Origin: an uncultured Aquabacterium sp.
GTDB taxonomy: Bacteria > Pseudomonadota > Gammaproteobacteria > Burkholderiales > Burkholderiaceae_C
Assembly (NCBI RefSeq): GCF_913773725.1
Contig: NZ_CAJYGK010000016.1
Coordinates: forward strand, 62,001-126,000
Length of the DNA: 64,000 nt
Direction: 5' to 3'
The position numbers and the translations under genes were made by a program. Each line of letters starts with the position of its first letter. The first letter of the stretch is position 1. Under the pieces are notes generated by a model. It did no database searches. It saw only the letters and a program-made list of their open reading frames with translations, and was not told where the DNA came from. This document shows, in pieces, positions 38,074-64,000 of the stretch.

Positions 38074-39629
38074 GCGGCGCCTCCCATGGCTACCAGATCG
38101 GCCCGTTGCGCGAGGGCGGCGCGGGCCTCTTCCACGTCGGAGAACGGCGAACGCAGGCCTGCGACCTCCTGATAGTCTTCATGGCCCTTCCCGGCGATCA
38201 GGACGACGTCGTGCGGCTCGGCATCGGCCAGCGCCTCGGCGATCGCTTCTCGGCGGTCGGCCACCACGGCGATCCGCGCACGCCCTTGCACGCCAGCCCG
38301 CACCTGGCCGAGGATGGCGTGCGGGTCTTCATGACGCGGGTTGTCGCTCGTGAGCACCACATGATCGGCCAGGGCATCGGCGATGCCTCCCATCAACGGG
38401 CGCTTGATCGGGTCGCGGTTGCCGCCGCAGCCGAACACACACCACAAACGCCCGCCCCGGGCGTCGGCCACCGGACGCAGCGCCTCCAGCGCCTTTTGCA
38501 GCGCATCCGGCGTGTGGGCGTAGTCGACCACGGCCAGCGGCAGGCGGGCGGCCAGCGCTGGCGGCACGGCCACCAGTTCCATCCGGCCCGGAACGGCCTG
38601 TAGACCGCGGCAGGCCGCCGCCGCCTCGGCCAGGGGCACGCCGAGCGCGCGCAGCGCCCCCACCACGGCGAGCAGGTTGGACACATTGAAGCGGCCGATC
38701 ACCGGCGCATGCAGATCGATGCGGCTGAGCTCGGTCAGGCCGCTGTCGGTGTGCTCCACCAGCGTGAATGCGATGCCGGCTGCCTCATGGCGGACGTGCT
38801 GGGCCTGCAGACGCGCCGGGGTGTCCACGCCATACGACCACACCGCCAGGCCGCGCGAGCGCGCATGGGTGCACAGCCCGGCGCCCATCGGGTCGTCGAG
38901 GTTGACGACCGCGGCCTGCAGCCCGGGCCAGTCGAACAGGGCGCGCTTGGCCTGCCAGTACGCGGCCATGCTGCCGTGGTAATCGAGGTGGTCCTGCGTA
39001 AAGTTGGTGAACTGCGCCACGGCGATGTGGGTGGCATGGAGTCGCAGCTCTTCGATGCCGATGGACGAGGCCTCGATGGCCGCGGCCTGCAGCCCCCCAT
39101 CGGCGAAGGCCCGGAAGGTCGCGTGCAAGGTGACGGGATCGGGCGTGGTCAACCCGGTGGGCGTGAACCCGGCGCCGCCCGGCTGCCCGACACCCAGCGT
39201 GCCGATCACGCCGCAGCCGCGCCCGAGCGCAGCCAGCGCCTGGGCTGTCCACCACGAGGTCGACGTCTTGCCGTTGGTGCCCGTGACGGCCACGACCTGC
39301 AGGCGTGCGCTGGGCTCGCCATAGAAGCCGTGGGCGATCTCGGCGCTGCGGGCCTTGAGTCCGGGCACCGCCGCCACCCGTGCATCGTCGAAGCCGAAGG
39401 GCTCGGCACCCTCGGCTTCGACCAGGCAGGCACGTGCACCGTCGGCCAGCGCCTGGGCCACGAAGCTGCGACCATCCCGTGCGGCCCCGGGCCAGGCGAT
39501 GAAAGCCACGCCCTGTCCGGCCAACGCCCCCACCTGGCGACTGTCGACGGTGAGCGCGCCCACCCCCTGCTCGCGCAGCCAGGCCAGCGCGTCTGCGGTG
39601 CTGTGAAGGGCATGCACGTGGGCGGCCAT
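38070..39629 (-). CDS. murE: UDP-MurNAc-tripeptide synthetase (meso-diaminopimelate adding)
   Basis: Adds the third stem residue. 519 aa from the ATG at 39629, whose first base is shared with the ftsI stop (TGATG). Motifs: ALTVDSRQVGALAGQG, the ATP loop VAVTGTNGKTSTSWWTAQ, TTPDPVTLHA, EASSIGIEELRL and NFTQDHLDYHGSM. DNPRHEDP near residue 400 is the specificity loop for meso-DAP. The frame stays open upstream through ftsI to 40391, but that part has no MurE homology. Downstream overlap with murF is ATGA. Confidence 0.96.
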   Translation of the reverse strand: MAAHVHALHSTADALAWLREQGVGALTVDSRQVGALAGQGVAFIAWPGAARDGRSFVAQALADGARACLVEAEGAEPFGFDDARVAAVPGLKARSAEIAHGFYGEPSARLQVVAVTGTNGKTSTSWWTAQALAALGRGCGVIGTLGVGQPGGAGFTPTGLTTPDPVTLHATFRAFADGGLQAAAIEASSIGIEELRLHATHIAVAQFTNFTQDHLDYHGSMAAYWQAKRALFDWPGLQAAVVNLDDPMGAGLCTHARSRGLAVWSYGVDTPARLQAQHVRHEAAGIAFTLVEHTDSGLTELSRIDLHAPVIGRFNVSNLLAVVGALRALGVPLAEAAAACRGLQAVPGRMELVAVPPALAARLPLAVVDYAHTPDALQKALEALRPVADARGGRLWCVFGCGGNRDPIKRPLMGGIADALADHVVLTSDNPRHEDPHAILGQVRAGVQGRARIAVVADRREAIAEALADAEPHDVVLIAGKGHEDYQEVAGLRSPFSDVEEARAALAQRADLVAMGGAA

Positions 39630-43511: not shown

Positions 43512-43584
43512 CTGCAAATTGGTCTGCAAGCGCTGGATGAGCAATTTCCCTCCACCGGGTGGGTGGAAACACGGCGCAACGACG

Positions 43585-43598
43585 CCCCCCCCCCCCCC
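43585..43598. repeat. homopolymeric tract of 14 cytosines
   Basis: Fourteen consecutive C on the plus strand in the divergent mraZ-feoA gap. Tracts of this length slip readily during replication and are also prone to sequencing error, so the exact length is uncertain. Confidence 0.85.
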
Positions 43599-43650
43599 GA
43601 TCTGCGCGTGCGGGATGGCCGAGCGGCGTGATCCGGATCAAGGCCCGTGA

Positions 43651-44032: not shown

Positions 44033-45919
44033 ATGGCGGCAGCGGCCCCTACCGCGACCTCGACCCCGCTCATCGCCCTGGTCGGCAACCCGAATTGCGG
44101 CAAGACCGCCCTCTTCAACCGCCTCACCGGCGCCCGCCAGAAGGTCGGCAACTATGCCGGCGTGACCGTCGAGCGCAAGGAGGGCCAGTTCATCTCGCCC
44201 AAGGGCCAGCCTTGGCGCTTGCTGGATTTGCCTGGCGCCTACAGTCTGCTGGCTGCCACGCCGGACGAAGTCATCACCCGGGACGTGATCGCCGGCACAC
44301 GCCGCGACGAATCCGCCCCCGTGGGCCTGGTGTGCGTCGTGGACGCGACCAACCTGCGACTGAACCTGCGCATGGTGCTGGAGTTGCAGACGCTGGGCGT
44401 GCCCATGGTGCTCGTCATCAACATGATGGACGAGGCCACTCGACGGGGCATCCGGATCGACACGGCCCGGCTTCAGGCCGAACTGGGCATGCCGGTGGTC
44501 GAAGCCGTTGCGGTGCGTGCAGGAGGTGAACAAGCCCTGCTGGCCCAGCTCGATGCGCTGGACTGGGCCGATCTGCCGGCGCCCGACGGGCCTCGCCCCG
44601 TGGCGCGCCTGGCCGAAATCCCGGTCGAACAGACGCACCAGCGGGTCGGCCAGCTTCTGGCGGCCTGCGTGCACGCCCCCGAGCACGCCTCTCACTTCAC
44701 GACCACGCTCGACCGCTACGTCCTCCACCCCATTCTGGGGCCGATGATCCTGGCCGCGCTGATGTTCCTGGTGTTCCAGGCGGTGTTCACCTGGGCGGCA
44801 GCCCCGATGGACCTGATCGACGCGGGCGTCGGCTGGGTCGGCGAACAGGTTCAGGCCCGCATGGCCGACGGCATGCTGCGCAGCCTGCTGGTCGATGGCG
44901 TCATCGCCGGCGCAGGCAGCGTGCTGGTTTTCCTCCCCCAGATCATCATCCTGTTTGCCTTCATCCTGGCGCTGGAGGATTCAGGCTACCTGCCTCGCGC
45001 GGCCTTTCTGCTGGACCGCATCATGGGCAGCGTCGGGCTGTCGGGCCGGGCTTTCATTCCGCTGCTGTCGAGCTTCGCCTGCGCCATCCCTGGCATCATG
45101 GCCACCCGCACCATCGGGCAGCCGCGCGACCGGCTGGTCACGATCCTGATCGCGCCCCTGATGACCTGCTCGGCGCGGTTGCCGGTGTACGCGCTGCTGA
45201 TCGCGGCCTTCGTGCCCTCGCGCACGGTGGGCGGCCTGTTCAATCTGCAAGGGCTGGTGCTCTTCGGCCTGTACATGGCGGGCATTGTGTCGGCCATGGT
45301 GGTGGCCCTGGTGCTCAAGCGCGTCCTCAAGCAAGGCAACAGCCAGCCTTTGCTGATGGAGTTGCCCGACTACCACTGGCCGCATTGGCGCGATCTGCTG
45401 CTCGGCCTGTGGGAACGGGGCAGCACCTTCGTGCGCCGCGTGGGCACAACCATTCTTTCGCTGATGGTGATGCTGTGGTTCCTGTCGAACTTCCCGGCGC
45501 CCCCGGACGGCGCCACGGGACCGGCCATTCAGTACAGCATCGCCGGCATGATGGGTCGCGCGCTCGAGGTGGTGTTCGCCCCCATCGGCTTCACCTGGCA
45601 GATCTGCATCGCACTGGTGCCCGGCCTGGCCGCGCGCGAGGTGGCCGTGGCAGCCCTGGGCACGGTTTACAGCCTGTCGCAGAGTGGCGATGAGTTGTCG
45701 GGCGCGCTGGCGCAACTGCTGAGCCAGACGTGGAGCCTGCCCACGGCCCTGTCGCTGTTGACTTGGTACGTATACGCGCCGCAATGCCTGCCGACGCTGA
45801 TGGTGGTTCGCCGCGAAACCAACGGCTGGAAGGTGCCGCTGATGCTGGCGGGCTACCTGTTCACGCTGGCTTACCTGGCATGCTTCATCGTGTACCACGT
45901 CGCATCGTGGTGGCTGTGA
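44033..45919 (+). CDS. feoB: ferrous iron transporter FeoB
   Basis: Inner-membrane Fe(II) transporter with an N-terminal G domain. 628 aa: G1 ALVGNPNCGKTALFNRLTG (residues 15-33), G2 NYAGVTVER, G3 LLDLPGAYSL, G4 VINMMDEA, then a GDI-like helical part. Two Gate domains begin at about residue 235, with FIPLLSSFACAIPGIMATRTI and the conserved Cys in LIAPLMTCSARLPVYALL. At 628 aa it is shorter than E. coli FeoB (773), mainly in the linker and C-terminus. GGAG precedes the ATG. Co-transcribed with feoA and the Cys-rich protein. Confidence 0.96.
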   Translation: MAAAAPTATSTPLIALVGNPNCGKTALFNRLTGARQKVGNYAGVTVERKEGQFISPKGQPWRLLDLPGAYSLLAATPDEVITRDVIAGTRRDESAPVGLVCVVDATNLRLNLRMVLELQTLGVPMVLVINMMDEATRRGIRIDTARLQAELGMPVVEAVAVRAGGEQALLAQLDALDWADLPAPDGPRPVARLAEIPVEQTHQRVGQLLAACVHAPEHASHFTTTLDRYVLHPILGPMILAALMFLVFQAVFTWAAAPMDLIDAGVGWVGEQVQARMADGMLRSLLVDGVIAGAGSVLVFLPQIIILFAFILALEDSGYLPRAAFLLDRIMGSVGLSGRAFIPLLSSFACAIPGIMATRTIGQPRDRLVTILIAPLMTCSARLPVYALLIAAFVPSRTVGGLFNLQGLVLFGLYMAGIVSAMVVALVLKRVLKQGNSQPLLMELPDYHWPHWRDLLLGLWERGSTFVRRVGTTILSLMVMLWFLSNFPAPPDGATGPAIQYSIAGMMGRALEVVFAPIGFTWQICIALVPGLAAREVAVAALGTVYSLSQSGDELSGALAQLLSQTWSLPTALSLLTWYVYAPQCLPTLMVVRRETNGWKVPLMLAGYLFTLAYLACFIVYHVASWWL

Positions 45920-55807: not shown

Positions 55808-56302
55808 TCAGCGCCGGGCCTTGGGAACCCAGGCCCAGACCATGCGGGCCTCGATCGGAGTCTCGCCCGCGGCGTCGGTGATGCGCACGGCCACCGTCAC
55901 CTCGCCCTTGTCCTGGGTCTGCATGGCCGCAATCTGATCCGGCGACAGGGCGGCCGTTGCGCGCAGGTCGCCCTGGGCGCGCCGGAGGTAGTCGACCTGC
56001 ATGGTCTTGATCAGCGGCAGCTTGTCGTCCGGCAGGTGCATGCCCACACAGAAGCCCGTGGCGGTTTCGGCCAGCAAGGCCATGCCGGCCGCGTGCACGC
56101 CCTTGATGTGGTTCTGCACGGGGCGGCGGTTGCGGATGCCCACCACCACCTGGCGGGCGCTCACCTCCTCGAAGCGCAGCCCCGCCGTGCCCACCAGCGG
56201 CACGATGCGGCCAAGGATGAGGCTGACCAGGCGCACCCTCAGGGGCGTGGGCAGCCCTTCGAATCGGGCCAGGGTGCGGGCGAGCTGGTTGGGGCGGGAC
56301 AT
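55808..56302 (-). CDS. hotdog-fold DUF4442 / PaaI-like thioesterase family protein
   Basis: 164 aa from the ATG at 56302, preceded by GGAGG. The hotdog core is seen in VVGIRNRRPVQNHIKGVHAAGMALLAETATG, where the NHxxGxHAxA pattern marks the central helix of thioesterases, and in LIKTMQVDYLRRAQGDLRA. No signal peptide. It converges with ppk2. An acyl-CoA or related thioester substrate is likely, but the DUF4442 branch is uncharacterised. Confidence 0.82.
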   Translation of the reverse strand: MSRPNQLARTLARFEGLPTPLRVRLVSLILGRIVPLVGTAGLRFEEVSARQVVVGIRNRRPVQNHIKGVHAAGMALLAETATGFCVGMHLPDDKLPLIKTMQVDYLRRAQGDLRATAALSPDQIAAMQTQDKGEVTVAVRITDAAGETPIEARMVWAWVPKARR

Positions 56303-56381
56303 GGGCAAACCTCCGGACTTCAAGGAGGGTGATGGTAATGAATTTGGTACCGCGAAGAACCGATGTCGTTCGCGCCCGCGC

Positions 56382-57758
56382 TCACGCGGCCATCAGCCCC
56401 GCCAGCGCGGCACCGTCGAAAGCCTCGATGCCCGGCACCACCTGTGGCAGCTCGGATGCGGGCACGCCGAACCAGCTGGCCAGCGAGGCCCCCAGCTGCT
56501 GCACCGCCAGCGTGGGCAGCAGGCGCCCCTGCCCCACGTGGTGCTCGCCGTCCAGCCCGGCGGGCGGCAAGGTGCCATACACCTGCCCACCCCGCACCGC
56601 ACCGCCCAGCACGAGGTGATGCCCGCCCCAGCCGTGGTCCGAGCCGTCGCCATTGCTCGTCAGCGTGCGCCCGAAGTCGCTGGCGGTGAAGGTCGTGACC
56701 TGGTTGGCCAGGCCGAGTCGGTCGACCTCTGCCTGGAAGGCCACCAGGGCCGAGGCGACCTGGGCCAGCAAGGCCGGGTGACGGGCCGTCAGGTTGTCGT
56801 GCAGGTCGAAGCCGCCGAGCTGAACGAAGAACACCTGCCGCCGCAGGCCCAGGGTGCCGCGCGCGGCCATCAGCCGGGCCACCATGGCGAGTTGCAGGCC
56901 CAGCGGCTCGGACAGGTTGAAGCCAACGGGTGATGGGACATCGACCAGGGCCGACCGGAGCCGGGCATTGACATCGATGGCGCGGGCCATCGTGCGGGCG
57001 TGCTCGGCCGCAAACAGGTGGGGTTGCGCGGTGTCGGTCACCAGGCTGCGAAAGGCCTCCACGCAGGCCGCAGAGCCGAACAGCCCGCCCTCGAGCGCCG
57101 CCAGGGCAGGCACCCCGCTCGGGCTCAGCATGTAGGGCACGGCCGTGGTGCCAGCGAGGAACACCGCCTGCCCTGCCAGGTTCATGCACGTCAGGGCCGC
57201 CTGGCTGTTGCCGGAGAGCACGGCATCGGCGGCCCGTCCGCCCCAGCCCGACAGGGCCCCTTCGGGCTGCCCGCTCTGCCAGACCGACTGCTGGTCGTTG
57301 TGCGAGAACAGCCTGGGCGGCAAGGGCACGCGCCGCGCGCGGTAGTCCGCCAGGGTGGTGGGCCGCACCAGGGGGCCGATGTTGCCGAGCCAGGCCAGGC
57401 GCCCGTCGACAAACTCGGGCAGCAGCGGCGCCAGCGCCGGCGCCGTGGCCCACAGTTGCCCCTGCACGCGGGCCGGCAGACGGGTCGCAGCCAGGTCGTC
57501 CATCGGCAGCGCCAGCGCACCGCGAGCCGCCGCGTAGACGCGGTGGGCCTCCGGGTCCACCGGCACCAGGGTGTTGGCGTGGTCATTGCCACCTTGCAGG
57601 AACACGCACACCAGCGCCTTGTAGTCATCGGTCGAGGCGGCTGCGGCGGCCTCGGCGATGTGGGACAGCTGCAGCGCCAGGGGCGCGGCCACACCGGCCA
57701 CCGACGCGGCCGCGCAGCGTCGCAGGAAGGCGCGCCGACTGAGGAGGGACGAGGACAT
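56382..57758 (-). CDS. DUF1501 family protein with Tat signal
   Basis: 458-aa exported protein. The signal has a perfect twin-arginine motif SRRAFLR (residues 7-13) followed by a hydrophobic stretch and an Ala-rich cleavage region, so it is exported folded and probably contains a metal. DUF1501 proteins are distantly related to sulfatase/alkaline-phosphatase folds; here VCVFLQGGNDHANTLVP, FSHNDQQSVWQSG, TFTASDFGRTLTSNG and DHGWGGHHLVLGG are the conserved blocks. It lies 44 bases downstream of the DUF1800 gene, the usual pairing, and so is probably secreted with it. Function unknown. Confidence 0.9.
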   Translation of the reverse strand: MSSSLLSRRAFLRRCAAASVAGVAAPLALQLSHIAEAAAAASTDDYKALVCVFLQGGNDHANTLVPVDPEAHRVYAAARGALALPMDDLAATRLPARVQGQLWATAPALAPLLPEFVDGRLAWLGNIGPLVRPTTLADYRARRVPLPPRLFSHNDQQSVWQSGQPEGALSGWGGRAADAVLSGNSQAALTCMNLAGQAVFLAGTTAVPYMLSPSGVPALAALEGGLFGSAACVEAFRSLVTDTAQPHLFAAEHARTMARAIDVNARLRSALVDVPSPVGFNLSEPLGLQLAMVARLMAARGTLGLRRQVFFVQLGGFDLHDNLTARHPALLAQVASALVAFQAEVDRLGLANQVTTFTASDFGRTLTSNGDGSDHGWGGHHLVLGGAVRGGQVYGTLPPAGLDGEHHVGQGRLLPTLAVQQLGASLASWFGVPASELPQVVPGIEAFDGAALAGLMAA

Positions 57759-59737: not shown

Positions 59738-62059
59738 TCAGGCTGCCTGTGCCGGCGGAGCCTCCATCCGCTCCAGCCCCCACCGCGCTCGCAACAGGCG
59801 GGCTGCCGCCACCATGTTGGCCAGTGCGGCACGGGTTTCCGGCCAGCCCCGTGTCTTGAGGCCGCAGTCGGGGTTGACCCACAGCCGCGCCACCGGAATG
59901 ACATCGGCAGCCCGTGCCAGCAAGGTCGTCATGGCCTCCACGGTGGGCACGCGCGGCGAATGGATGTCGTAGACCCCTGGGCCGATGGCATTGGGGTAGT
60001 CGAACGCGCCGAAGCCATCAAGCAGGGCCATGGCCGACCGTGCCGTCTCGATCGTGATCACGTCCGCGTCCATGGCCGCGATGGCGGGCAGGATGTCGTT
60101 GAACTCCGAGTAGCACATGTGGGTGTGGATCTGCGTCTCGTCGCGCACACCACACGAGGCCAGCCGGAACGCCCGCACGGCCCAGTCCAGATAGTGGGCC
60201 CAGTCGCGCTGGCGCAGGGGCAGGCCTTCGCGGAAGGCCGGCTCGTCGATCTGGATCACACGGATGCCAGCCTGCTCGAGGTCACGGACCTCGTCCCGCA
60301 CGGCCAGCGCCAGCTGCAACGCCGTCGTCTCGCGCGGCTGGTCGTCCCGCACGAAAGACCATTGCAGCAGGGTGACCGGGCCGGTCAGCATGCCCTTCAT
60401 CGGCCTGTCGGTCAGCGATTGCGCAAAGCGCGTGGTCTCCACCGTCATGGGCTCCGGCCGCAGCACATCGCCGTACAGGATGGGCGGCTTCACGCACCGC
60501 GACCCATAGCTTTGCACCCATCCGTGCTCGGTGAAGGCAAAGCCGAAGAGCTGCTCGCCGAAGTACTCGACCATGTCGTTGCGTTCGGCCTCGCCATGGA
60601 CCAGCACATCCAGACCCAGCGCTTCCTGCTCGCGCACCGCCTGGCGGATCTCGTCGCGGATGCGGTGCAGGTAGCCCTCGGCCGACAGCTCGCCACGGCG
60701 GTAGGCGGCGCGTGTGCGGCGGATCTCGGCGGTCTGCGGGAAAGAGCCGATGGTCGTGGTCGGCAAGGCTGGCAACGGCAAGGCCGCCTGCTGGCGTGCG
60801 GCCCGCTCGGCAAACGGACTGCCGCGCTGGGTCATGGCCGCCGACACGTCGGCCACGCGGCGCTGCACAGCACGGTAGGTGACCCGCGGCGAGGCCCGGC
60901 GCCCTGCAGCGACGGCGTCCGAATGCTGCAGGGCGGAGGCCACCGCGTCGTCGCCCTCGTCGAGGGCTTGCGCCAGCACCTTGAGTTCATCGAGCTTGTC
61001 GAGCGCGAACGCCAGCCAGCTGCGAACCTCGGGGTCGAGCCGGGTTTCCGCGGCCAGGCTGACGGGCACATGCAAGAGGGAGCACGAGGGCGCCAGCCAC
61101 AGGCGATCGCCCCACAGCGCGTGGGCCGCCTTGAGCGGTGACAGCGCGCGGCGCAGGTCGGTGCGCCAGATGTTCCGGCCATCCACGACACCGAGAGACA
61201 GCACCCGGTCGCGTGGCCACGCGGCCAGCCAGGCGTCGAGCTGCTCGGGGGCGCGCACGAGGTCCAGGTGCACGCCGTCGATCGGCAGGCCGGCCAGGCG
61301 TTCGGCGTGCTCGGCGGCCGTCCCGAAACTGGTGGCCACCAGAGTGCGCACCCCGGTCGTGGGCAGGGCGGCGTAGGCCTGCGAGACGGCGGCCAGCCAG
61401 TCGGGTGGCAGGTCGGCACACAAGGCCGGTTCGTCGAACTGCACCCAGGCCACCCCGCGGGCCTGCAGGCCATCGAGCAGGCGACGGTAGCCCGACAGAA
61501 GGCGCGGCAGCAGGCTCAGCCGCGGGTCTTGGCCGGGCTGACTGTCGCCGTACCAGCGCGACACCCACAGCAGCGTGATCGGCCCGGGCAGCACGGCCTT
61601 GACGGGATGGCCCAGCGCCTGCGCCTCGTCCACCTCGTCCCACAGCCAGGTGACGCCGCCATCGAAGCGGGTGTGCGCATCCAGCTCGGGGACCAGGTGG
61701 TGGTAGTTGGTGTCGAACCACTTGGTCATGTCCATCGCTGGCTGGTCGGCATTGCCCCGCGCGAGGGCGAAGTACTCGCTCAGGCTGAGCTGCCGGGCGT
61801 CGAAGCCGAACCGGCGTGGCAAGGCCCCGAGCGCCACACACAGACTCAGGATGTGGTCGTACCAGGCAAAGTCCCCCACCGTGACGAGGGTCTGGCCGGC
61901 ATCGCGCTGAGCCTGCCAGTGGCGTGCCCGCAGCATGCGGCCGGTGTCCACCAGCCGGGCGGCATCGGGGTCGTCACCGCGCCAGAAGGATTCGAGGGCG
62001 TGCTTGAGCTCGCGCTGGGCGCCAATGCGCGGAAAGCCGAGGATATGGGTCTGGGTCAT
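59738..62059 (-). CDS. metE: cobalamin-independent methionine synthase
   Basis: Transfers a methyl group from 5-methyl-THF-polyglutamate to homocysteine. 773 aa from the ATG at 62059 ([19 protein letters not shown]). The C-terminal catalytic domain begins [17 protein letters not shown]. Zinc ligands are visible in [10 protein letters not shown] (His, Cys), the Glu in ITIETARS and the Cys in [13 protein letters not shown]. The frame continues upstream to 62110 without homology. A MetR-type palindrome is 80-94 bases upstream; no cobalamin riboswitch is seen. Confidence 0.97.
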
Positions 62060-62138
62060 CGCAGGATTCAGGTTGGTCGATGGCCGGCAGTCTGGCCGGC
62101 ACGAAACCATGAATCAAGCGATATGTTTTCAACGAGAC

Positions 62139-62153
62139 ATGAATGGAATTCAT
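62139..62153 (-). promoter_or_regulatory. MetR-type operator upstream of metE
   Basis: ATGAATGGAATTCAT is a perfect palindrome around GGA and contains TGAA-N5-TTCA, the consensus for the LysR-type activator MetR. It lies 80 bases upstream of the metE ATG, where an activator site is expected. metR itself is not in the window. Confidence 0.65.
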
Positions 62154-62189
62154 CCATAAAGCGAGCGCTCGGGCCACCCCAATAAACAA

Positions 62190-62216
62190 AAAGGGGGCCT
62201 TCGGCAGGCCCCCTTT
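62190..62216 (-). terminator. intrinsic terminator of the PEP-CTERM gene
   Basis: Stem AAAGGGGGCCT (62190-62200) and AGGCCCCCTTT (62206-62216) with loop TCGGC. On the minus strand it continues as CCCCCTTTTTGTTT, a strong Rho-independent terminator. A second hairpin, GGCCCG-GAAT-CGGGCC (62232-62247), precedes it. Confidence 0.85.
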
Positions 62217-62252
62217 GGAAGTGTCCATCGTGGCCCGGAATCGGGCCTGGCG

Positions 62253-62356
62253 TCACCGCGCGCGCCGCGACGCCGCACTGCGGCCACGCCCAGCAGACCC
62301 AGCGCCATCAGCCCCACCGAGGCCGGCTCGGGCACGGCCGTCACGCGCACCAGATC
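62253..62356 (-). other. detached PEP-CTERM sorting signal, in frame after a TAG stop
   Basis: Directly after the TAG of the upstream frame (62359-62357) the same frame reads DLVRVTAVPEPASVGLMALG, then a hydrophobic helix and RRRGAR. This is a complete PEP-CTERM signal (VPEP, transmembrane helix, Arg cluster). The frame has no stop soon after the Arg cluster and runs to 62150 through the terminator; a TGA at 62255-62253 would end it properly in another frame. So the tail seems to carry a nonsense codon and a possible frameshift. Confidence 0.8.
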
Positions 62357-62929
62357 CTAGTAGCTGCTGTTGCTGAGCTTGTCCACCTTCACGAGCGACG
62401 GGCCGGTCCAGTTGGCCGCGGCAGTGAGGTAGCTGTTGGCCAGGTTAGCGAGGCTCACACCGGCCGTCGTGGTGTCGTTCACGTAGAAGCTGCCCATGCC
62501 GTAGCCCAGGCTCAGCTTGCTGTTCGACTCGTGCATGATCTCCCACACAGCGAGCTGCACAGCGGCGTACTCGGTGCTGGAGTCGACCTTGGTGGAGCCA
62601 GTGAACGTGGCCACCGACGAGAACAGGCCCTCAAGCAGCTTCTGGTCGGCCAGACCGAAGGTTCCGACCGTGTAGGTCTGGAAGCTGCTGCTGGTGTACT
62701 GGGTGATCTCGGCGCAGTACACCATGAAGCTCGCGCCCAGGTTGGTCGACACCTGGAAGGTGCCTGCGTCCACTTTCTCGGTGTTCCAGCCGTTCGTCAC
62801 GGTGGTGACGGCATGCGTGCCGGTGCTGGTGTAGCCGTCCGTTTTCAGCGTGAGCGTGGTGCCGGTGGCGTGGGCGAGGCTGACGCCGGCCAGAAGGGCG
62901 AGCGCTGCAGCGCGTTGCGCGTATGCCAT
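62357..62929 (-). CDS. secreted PEP-CTERM-type protein, truncated by in-frame TAG; Cys/Gln thioester-like domain
   Basis: 190 aa up to the TAG. The signal peptide ends VSLAHA (residue about 21). The mature part is Thr/Ser-rich with one Cys in FMVYCAEITQ (Cys72) and YAAVQLAVWEIMHES (Gln125). This arrangement recalls the Cys...Gln-(L)A-(I/V)-W pattern of thioester-forming surface domains; that link is inference. An intact gene would continue into the PEP-CTERM signal just downstream, needing CAG (Gln) in place of TAG. As written, the protein would be secreted to the periplasm without the exosortase signal. Possible causes are a real nonsense mutation, a sequencing error or stop read-through. 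The ATG at 62929 gives a standard signal peptide. Confidence 0.8.
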   Translation of the reverse strand: MAYAQRAAALALLAGVSLAHATGTTLTLKTDGYTSTGTHAVTTVTNGWNTEKVDAGTFQVSTNLGASFMVYCAEITQYTSSSFQTYTVGTFGLADQKLLEGLFSSVATFTGSTKVDSSTEYAAVQLAVWEIMHESNSKLSLGYGMGSFYVNDTTTAGVSLANLANSYLTAAANWTGPSLVKVDKLSNSSY

Positions 62930-63028
62930 GTGAGTACTTCCCGAGATGACTGCCAATACCCCACAAATGTAAGGGGCAGAGCTGTCGGGGAACCATCCCT
63001 CAGGCCCGGGTGCGACCTAAACACAGGG

Positions 63029-63741
<713 letters not shown>

Positions 63742-63745
<4 letters not shown>

Positions 63746-64000
63746 AGCCGGATCGCCTGGGCCGGGTCCATGCGGGCGGCACGCCGCGCAGGCGCAATGG
63801 CTGCCAGCACCCCCGCCACCAGCGTGATGCCCACCGCCTCGAACGCCATGCCGGGCGGGAGCGTGATCGCGAACAGGGGCAGGCCATCGGCCCCGCGCAC
63901 AAAGGTGGTGAAGGCCTTGATCATCGCCATGGCCAGCACGACGCCGGCCATGGAACCCAGCGTGCCCACCAGCGCGCCCTGAAGCAGGAACACGCGCAGA
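63742..64000 (-). CDS. FtsX/MacB-type ABC transporter permease (5' part beyond window)
   Basis: Only the C-terminal 85 residues are present. They include RVFLLQGALVGTLGSMAGVV, a transmembrane helix, a short loop (GADGLPLFAITLPPGM), a last transmembrane helix and the cytoplasmic end APARRAARMDPAQAIRL. This Ala-Arg-Arg-Ala-Arg-x-x-P-x-x-A-x-R ending is the hallmark of FtsX-like permeases that interact with LolD/MacB ATPases. Overlaps the ATPase gene by four bases. Confidence 0.88.

Follow-up and report, generated by a model that had tools for sequence, protein, structure and literature searches.

What has become of a secreted-protein gene whose reading frame is closed by a TAG just before its own sorting signal? 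The question is raised by a minus-strand gene (62253..62929) in a 64,000-nucleotide stretch (the window) of an uncultured Aquabacterium sp. genome (G000), whose open reading frame (ORF) starts at ATG 62929 and ends at TAG 62359-62357, giving a translated product of 190 amino acids with the C-terminal end ...KLSNSSY. The best reading of the locus, and quite a probable one, was that an accessory gene is present here as a real loss-of-function allele of recent origin: the stop appears to have cut the gene short recently, and the gene is probably dead in the window's strain.

The split frame and its intact copies

In the same frame, the TAG was followed by 34 codons (DLVRV...VPEP...RRRGARG) and then by 34 more up to the stop at 62152-62150. 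This stretch after the TAG scored 32.4 bits against the Pfam PEP-CTERM family (cut-off 20.7), and the translated protein itself was left with no C-terminal sorting signal. Past the TAG the frame crossed a terminator-like stem (one site found vs. 0.7 expected from shuffles, weak alone; the same stem was present in the close relative L027), and an out-of-frame TGA was located where the original end of the gene is expected. The initial annotation had described this arrangement from the letters alone (a TAG directly before the signal, a signal frame running through the terminator for want of its stop, and a TGA in another frame at the expected end), and it was borne out in each of these features.

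The corresponding gene in L027, a locus from an Aquabacterium olei metagenome-assembled genome, was a single 225-codon ORF, so the split frame is not a product of chance. L027 aligned to positions 61500-64000 of the window with 98.8% DNA identity (2,502 alignment columns, 29 mismatches, 1 gap), and the two genes differed by C/T at the TAG, which agrees with the single change from CAG to TAG proposed initially, and by one G fewer in the window just before the original stop. The bodies showed 9 synonymous and 0 non-synonymous differences (138.7 synonymous sites; identical protein sequence), and the remnant after the TAG 3 synonymous and 0 non-synonymous differences besides the two lesions (codon 225, the gap site, excluded). 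An uninterrupted relative of 225 amino acids, P0001, was 99% identical, had Gln at position 191 and one amino-acid difference of its own, and ended in a PEP-CTERM signal (28.7 bits); an intact copy with 67% identity was found in the genome G012 between the same two neighbours. Orthologues ending at the TAG site with no PEP-CTERM signal, which had been named as evidence against a split gene, were not found in L027, P0001 or G012.

Near full-length matches were present in G000 and G012 only, among 37 genomes of the same genus (G000 included), and the PEP-CTERM gene is therefore accessory. At the level of the order, 112 of 300 genomes had a match at E<=0.001 among the matches listed, many of them to the sorting signal only. 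The window sequence was the only one with an internal TAG among the 24 matches at E<=2.9e-14; weaker, mostly signal-only matches also held stops, including one TAG (G086). One of the 24, L173 (G243:C5:128314-128871), is a family match with one internal TAA.

The window's genome, in which a search for an exosortase had been suggested, had 3 exosortase-family loci above the PF09721 cut-off and 28 PEP-CTERM loci. These loci and the signal of P0001 resemble the PEP-CTERM/EpsH system described in excerpts of PMC1569441, from which the window allele differs in having its signal severed from the protein by the TAG. Only the window locus had a short frame, apart from L048 (G000:C118:3901-3978); the other 26 had open frames of at least 174 codons (only frame length was compared). 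L048 was considered as a second split PEP-CTERM gene and rejected: its frame was of 51 codons, no more than about 75 bases separated the match from the end of its contig (4,052 bases) and the body was not on that contig, the locus being probably cut by the contig end.

Residue 191 and the predicted thioester-domain fold

The predicted model of P0001 had the fold of a thioester domain (TED), as judged from its Foldseek matches. Residue conservation was followed in the best 120 of 161 proteins retained from 7,996 scored candidates. Whether codon 191 encodes Gln in relatives had been left to be checked; it did so in all 119 non-gap rows. Cys72, in the motif YCAE (71-74), was conserved in all 118 non-gap rows and Glu74 in 96 of them, and in the helix motif VQLAVW both Q125 and W129 were found in 119 of 119. 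According to excerpts of PMC4450167, the thioester Cys of TEDs is located within a [YFL]C-hydrophobic-hydrophilic motif, and a TQxx-hydrophobic-W helix motif is present in most TEDs and not required; its T was absent in the window protein. At residue 191, P0001 reads YQDLV, fitting the weak hydrophobic-Q-hydrophilic-hydrophobic-hydrophobic motif for the thioester-forming Gln.

Simple regular expressions found the Cys and Gln/Trp motifs in order in 94 of the 120 homologues, and a PEP-CTERM-like tail in 114. Removal of P0081, P0087, P0091, P0100, P0105, P0107 and P0113, which were short or odd-ended, gave an alignment of 113 members, where PF07589 was detected at E<=0.1 in 110 and the TED family PF08341 in 68 (best E 2.3e-4). 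Among 21 order-level loci, the QxAxWE pattern was unmatched in 6, leaving the window and 14 others: on visual inspection, 12 of these (L161-L172) had a Q in the equivalent position and L178 had none, and the sequence of L175 was incomplete; the Cys pattern was unmatched in 7 of the 14.

The structure matches point to the same residue. The last aligned residues of the model, 198, 199 and 200, were paired with residues 268 (5a0l), 255 (5a0n) and 276 (5a0d), entries which were equated by their titles with SfbI, PnTIE and CpTIE, respectively. Provided that the end residues contain no gap, model residue 191 would fall on 261, 247 and 267, that is, on the Gln of the thioester pairs given in the excerpts of PMC4450167 (Cys109-Gln261 in SfbI, Cys94-Gln247 in PnTIE and Cys138-Gln267 in CpTIE), in 3 of the 3 proteins having both a published Gln number there and an entry in the structure-match list. 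Under the same assumption, the TAG occupies the place of the bond-forming Gln. Codon 191 of the window allele being TAG, this predicted thioester-forming Gln is not encoded, and the 190-residue product consequently lacks the predicted reactive bond, together with the last strand (residues 193-198 of the P0001 model) and the anchor. That the stop hit exactly codon 191 may be a coincidence.

The predicted fold of the intact relative, and the YCAE, QxxxW and YQDLV motifs in the same order with the Cys and Gln conserved throughout the family alignment, resemble the Gram-positive TEDs (Cpa, SfbI, CpTIE, PnTIE, BaTIE, EfmTIE86 and SaTIE) as presented in excerpts of PMC4450167 and PMC6194298. In contrast to these, which use LPXTG sorting, the intact relatives carry PEP-CTERM and their TED forms the entire mature protein, with no stalk; the window allele differs further in having a stop as its Gln codon.

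The product of the intact gene would be a small, secreted protein with a thioester domain and, at its C-terminus, a PEP-CTERM signal. After export, an internal Cys72-Gln191 thioester may form and the tail may be processed by an exosortase. The cell surface or the exopolymer matrix may be the site of action of the protein; there, its thioester could react with amines of a partner in a putative adhesive role. In the window's strain, with TAG for the codon of the predicted bond-forming Gln and the original stop put out of frame by the one-base difference, the product would end one residue before the reactive Gln, would be missing both its last strand and its sorting signal, and would be neither cross-linked nor anchored.

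It seems rather likely that the intact relatives constitute an exosortase-anchored, single-domain thioester family of Gram-negative bacteria, that is, proteins of the surface or matrix that react covalently with amines and are delivered by PEP-CTERM, one of which the window's strain lost through a stop at the bond-forming Gln. In the excerpts of PMC4450167, TED matches are given as exclusive to Gram-positive bacteria; if correct, the family described here would extend thioester chemistry to Gram-negative bacteria, where the search reported there found none. As a rule, PEP-CTERM proteins share no recognizable homology beyond the signal, according to excerpts of PMC1569441, and their function is consequently mostly open; a thioester fold for one such family would provide a testable chemistry, namely attachment by covalent bonds within flocs, biofilms or exopolymer. 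Our literature search retrieved no paper joining PEP-CTERM with a thioester domain, and papers containing both “PEP-CTERM” and “thioester” did not deal with TEDs, judging by their titles; the combination may be known elsewhere.

Probable loss of function and the competing explanations

Young pseudogenes of strain-variable surface-protein genes are a known kind. The window allele resembles them in its premature stop, its second downstream lesion, its intact copies in close relatives and its conserved body, and differs in the position of its stop, which coincides with the residue predicted to form the bond; it would be a small example of surface-protein loss at strain level. If the truncated product is useless, an unconstrained body should show many amino-acid changes, and because it shows none, the break would be much younger than the split from L027, or else an artefact.

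Several observations weigh against a young, broken thioester-domain gene. The TM-scores of the top 13 Foldseek matches were modest (0.39-0.46 by query length); the placement of residue 191 assumes that the last 7-9 aligned residues are gapless, as only the end points were used; P0001 scored 15.6 bits for PF08341, below the cut-off of 22; and a profile search of the sequences of solved structures with the 113-member alignment yielded 11 unrelated proteins, the best at E 0.15, and no TED. The sub-cut-off score lowers the formal filing of the family more than the claim of the fold, because TED structures share as little as 12% identity (excerpts of PMC4450167). Body and remnant showed no decay beyond the two lesions, the youth of the break is inferred and not dated, and the allele is known from the assembly.

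The last points would also fit an assembly or sequencing artefact, both differences being errors in a gene that is intact in the strain. Both are located in one gene; the TAG is part of CTAG, which is markedly rare in the window (4 occurrences, at 1015, 43675, 46187 and 62357, vs. a shuffle mean of 45.3, standard deviation 5.8), and the one-base difference sits in a run of G. Against this, the site is mid-contig (C16:124,357 of 215,437 bases). From 48 ORFs chosen over the whole window by length and codon-position G+C content, 28 were matched in the fetched loci (the search in the L027 genome covered 40,000 bases out of 64,000); 23 aligned whole in one frame in the compared part, and the stop was at the same place in 22 of the 26 whose end could be compared. 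The four with differing ends were the PEP-CTERM gene, 44033-45919 (stop one codon later in the relative), and 39004-39324 and 56001-56933, both of doubtful reality, the latter overlapping a minus-strand ORF. There were 65 gap events with respect to the genome of L027, some counted twice in overlapping loci and many mutually compensating in diverged stretches, and the isolated one-base gaps at 43612, 46277 and 46744 fell outside the chosen ORFs. A pair of errors confined to a single gene would be unusual, and the wrong assembly suggested initially became less likely from the state of these genes; it is the strongest of the alternatives.

A 190-residue body still working outside the cell with its anchor gone, a functional switch rather than a loss, is more doubtful still. 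The signal peptide and the body are intact, at 0 non-synonymous vs. 9 synonymous differences from L027, but the missing residue is the Gln found in every non-gap row, which aligns with the thioester Gln of the three solved TEDs, and the last strand of the model is also missing. From the initial proposal of a recent loss of the anchor giving a freely secreted form, the loss of the anchor was supported, with a second lesion at the stop, and looks recent from the conserved body; the working secreted form was not supported, given the predicted loss of the thioester Gln and the last strand.

UAG misreading by tRNA-Gln is known in other bacteria, and low-level insertion of Gln at the TAG would yield a certain amount of full-length thioester protein whose cytoplasmic tail is extended. 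The remnant frame, with its synonymous differences only, would be compatible with such read-through, which was nevertheless judged highly improbable: no CTA anticodon was found, nor any TTA or TCA, among 51 distinct tRNA genes of the window's genome (Rfam matches read by ARAGORN), a set which is not quite complete, as Ile-GAT and Ala-TGC are missing and a few tRNA genes may therefore be unassembled. Moreover, only one PEP-CTERM locus is visibly split, besides the one at a contig end, and the read-through product would continue 34 residues beyond the signal. Read-through, and the suppressor tRNA for which a search had been advised, thus gained no positive evidence. A pattern running from anticodon to T-loop gave three candidate places for a suppressor, one being the ARAGORN tRNA Arg-TCT; all were rejected. 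The sole tRNA-Gln among the 51 genes, L145 (G000:C33), has the anticodon TTG.

Layout of the locus and minor observations

The features of the locus are summarized in Table 1.

Table 1. Positions of the PEP-CTERM gene, its lesions and its neighbours in the window.
Feature	Position	Strand	Basis
ORF of 190 codons cut short by the TAG: visually assigned signal peptide and predicted thioester-domain body lacking the last strand	62360..62929	minus	ORF; P0001 fold
Predicted thioester Cys (codon 72) in the motif YCAE	62714..62716	minus	Alignment and motif in PMC4450167 (excerpts)
Helix motif QxxxW, its Gln (codon 125)	62555..62557	minus	Alignment
In-frame TAG, codon 191, place of the predicted thioester-forming Gln	62357..62359	minus	ORF, L027 comparison, alignment, structure match
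Untranslated remnant of 34 codons, with the last strand (DLVRV) and the PEP-CTERM signal	62255..62356	minus	ORF, Pfam
G run one base shorter than in L027, with the out-of-frame TGA (62255-62253)	62253..62257	minus	L027 comparison
Extension of the remnant frame up to the next stop	62150..62254	minus	ORF
Terminator-like stem, followed by a T-rich tail	62190..62216	minus	Also in L027
Downstream neighbour	59738..62059	minus	ORF; neighbour also in G012
Upstream neighbour	63029..63745	minus	ORF; neighbour also in G012

The downstream neighbour is presumably MetE-like, and the upstream one was taken to be a LolD-like ABC ATPase.

Dcm-type hypermutation was considered as the cause of the base change, as the differing C lies within CCAGG in the relative, and was rejected: changes from C in the relative to T in the window showed no excess at the second C of CCWGG (6 of 461) with respect to CC[CG]GG (4 of 344) and [AGT]C[AT]GG (13 of 937) in 36,567 aligned columns. 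The window's genome has one C5-cytosine methylase frame of 584 codons (L112/L113, G000:C59:5053-6570; two matches, specificity not assigned). A C-rich run at 43577-43612, outside the chosen ORFs, differed by several bases from the relative.
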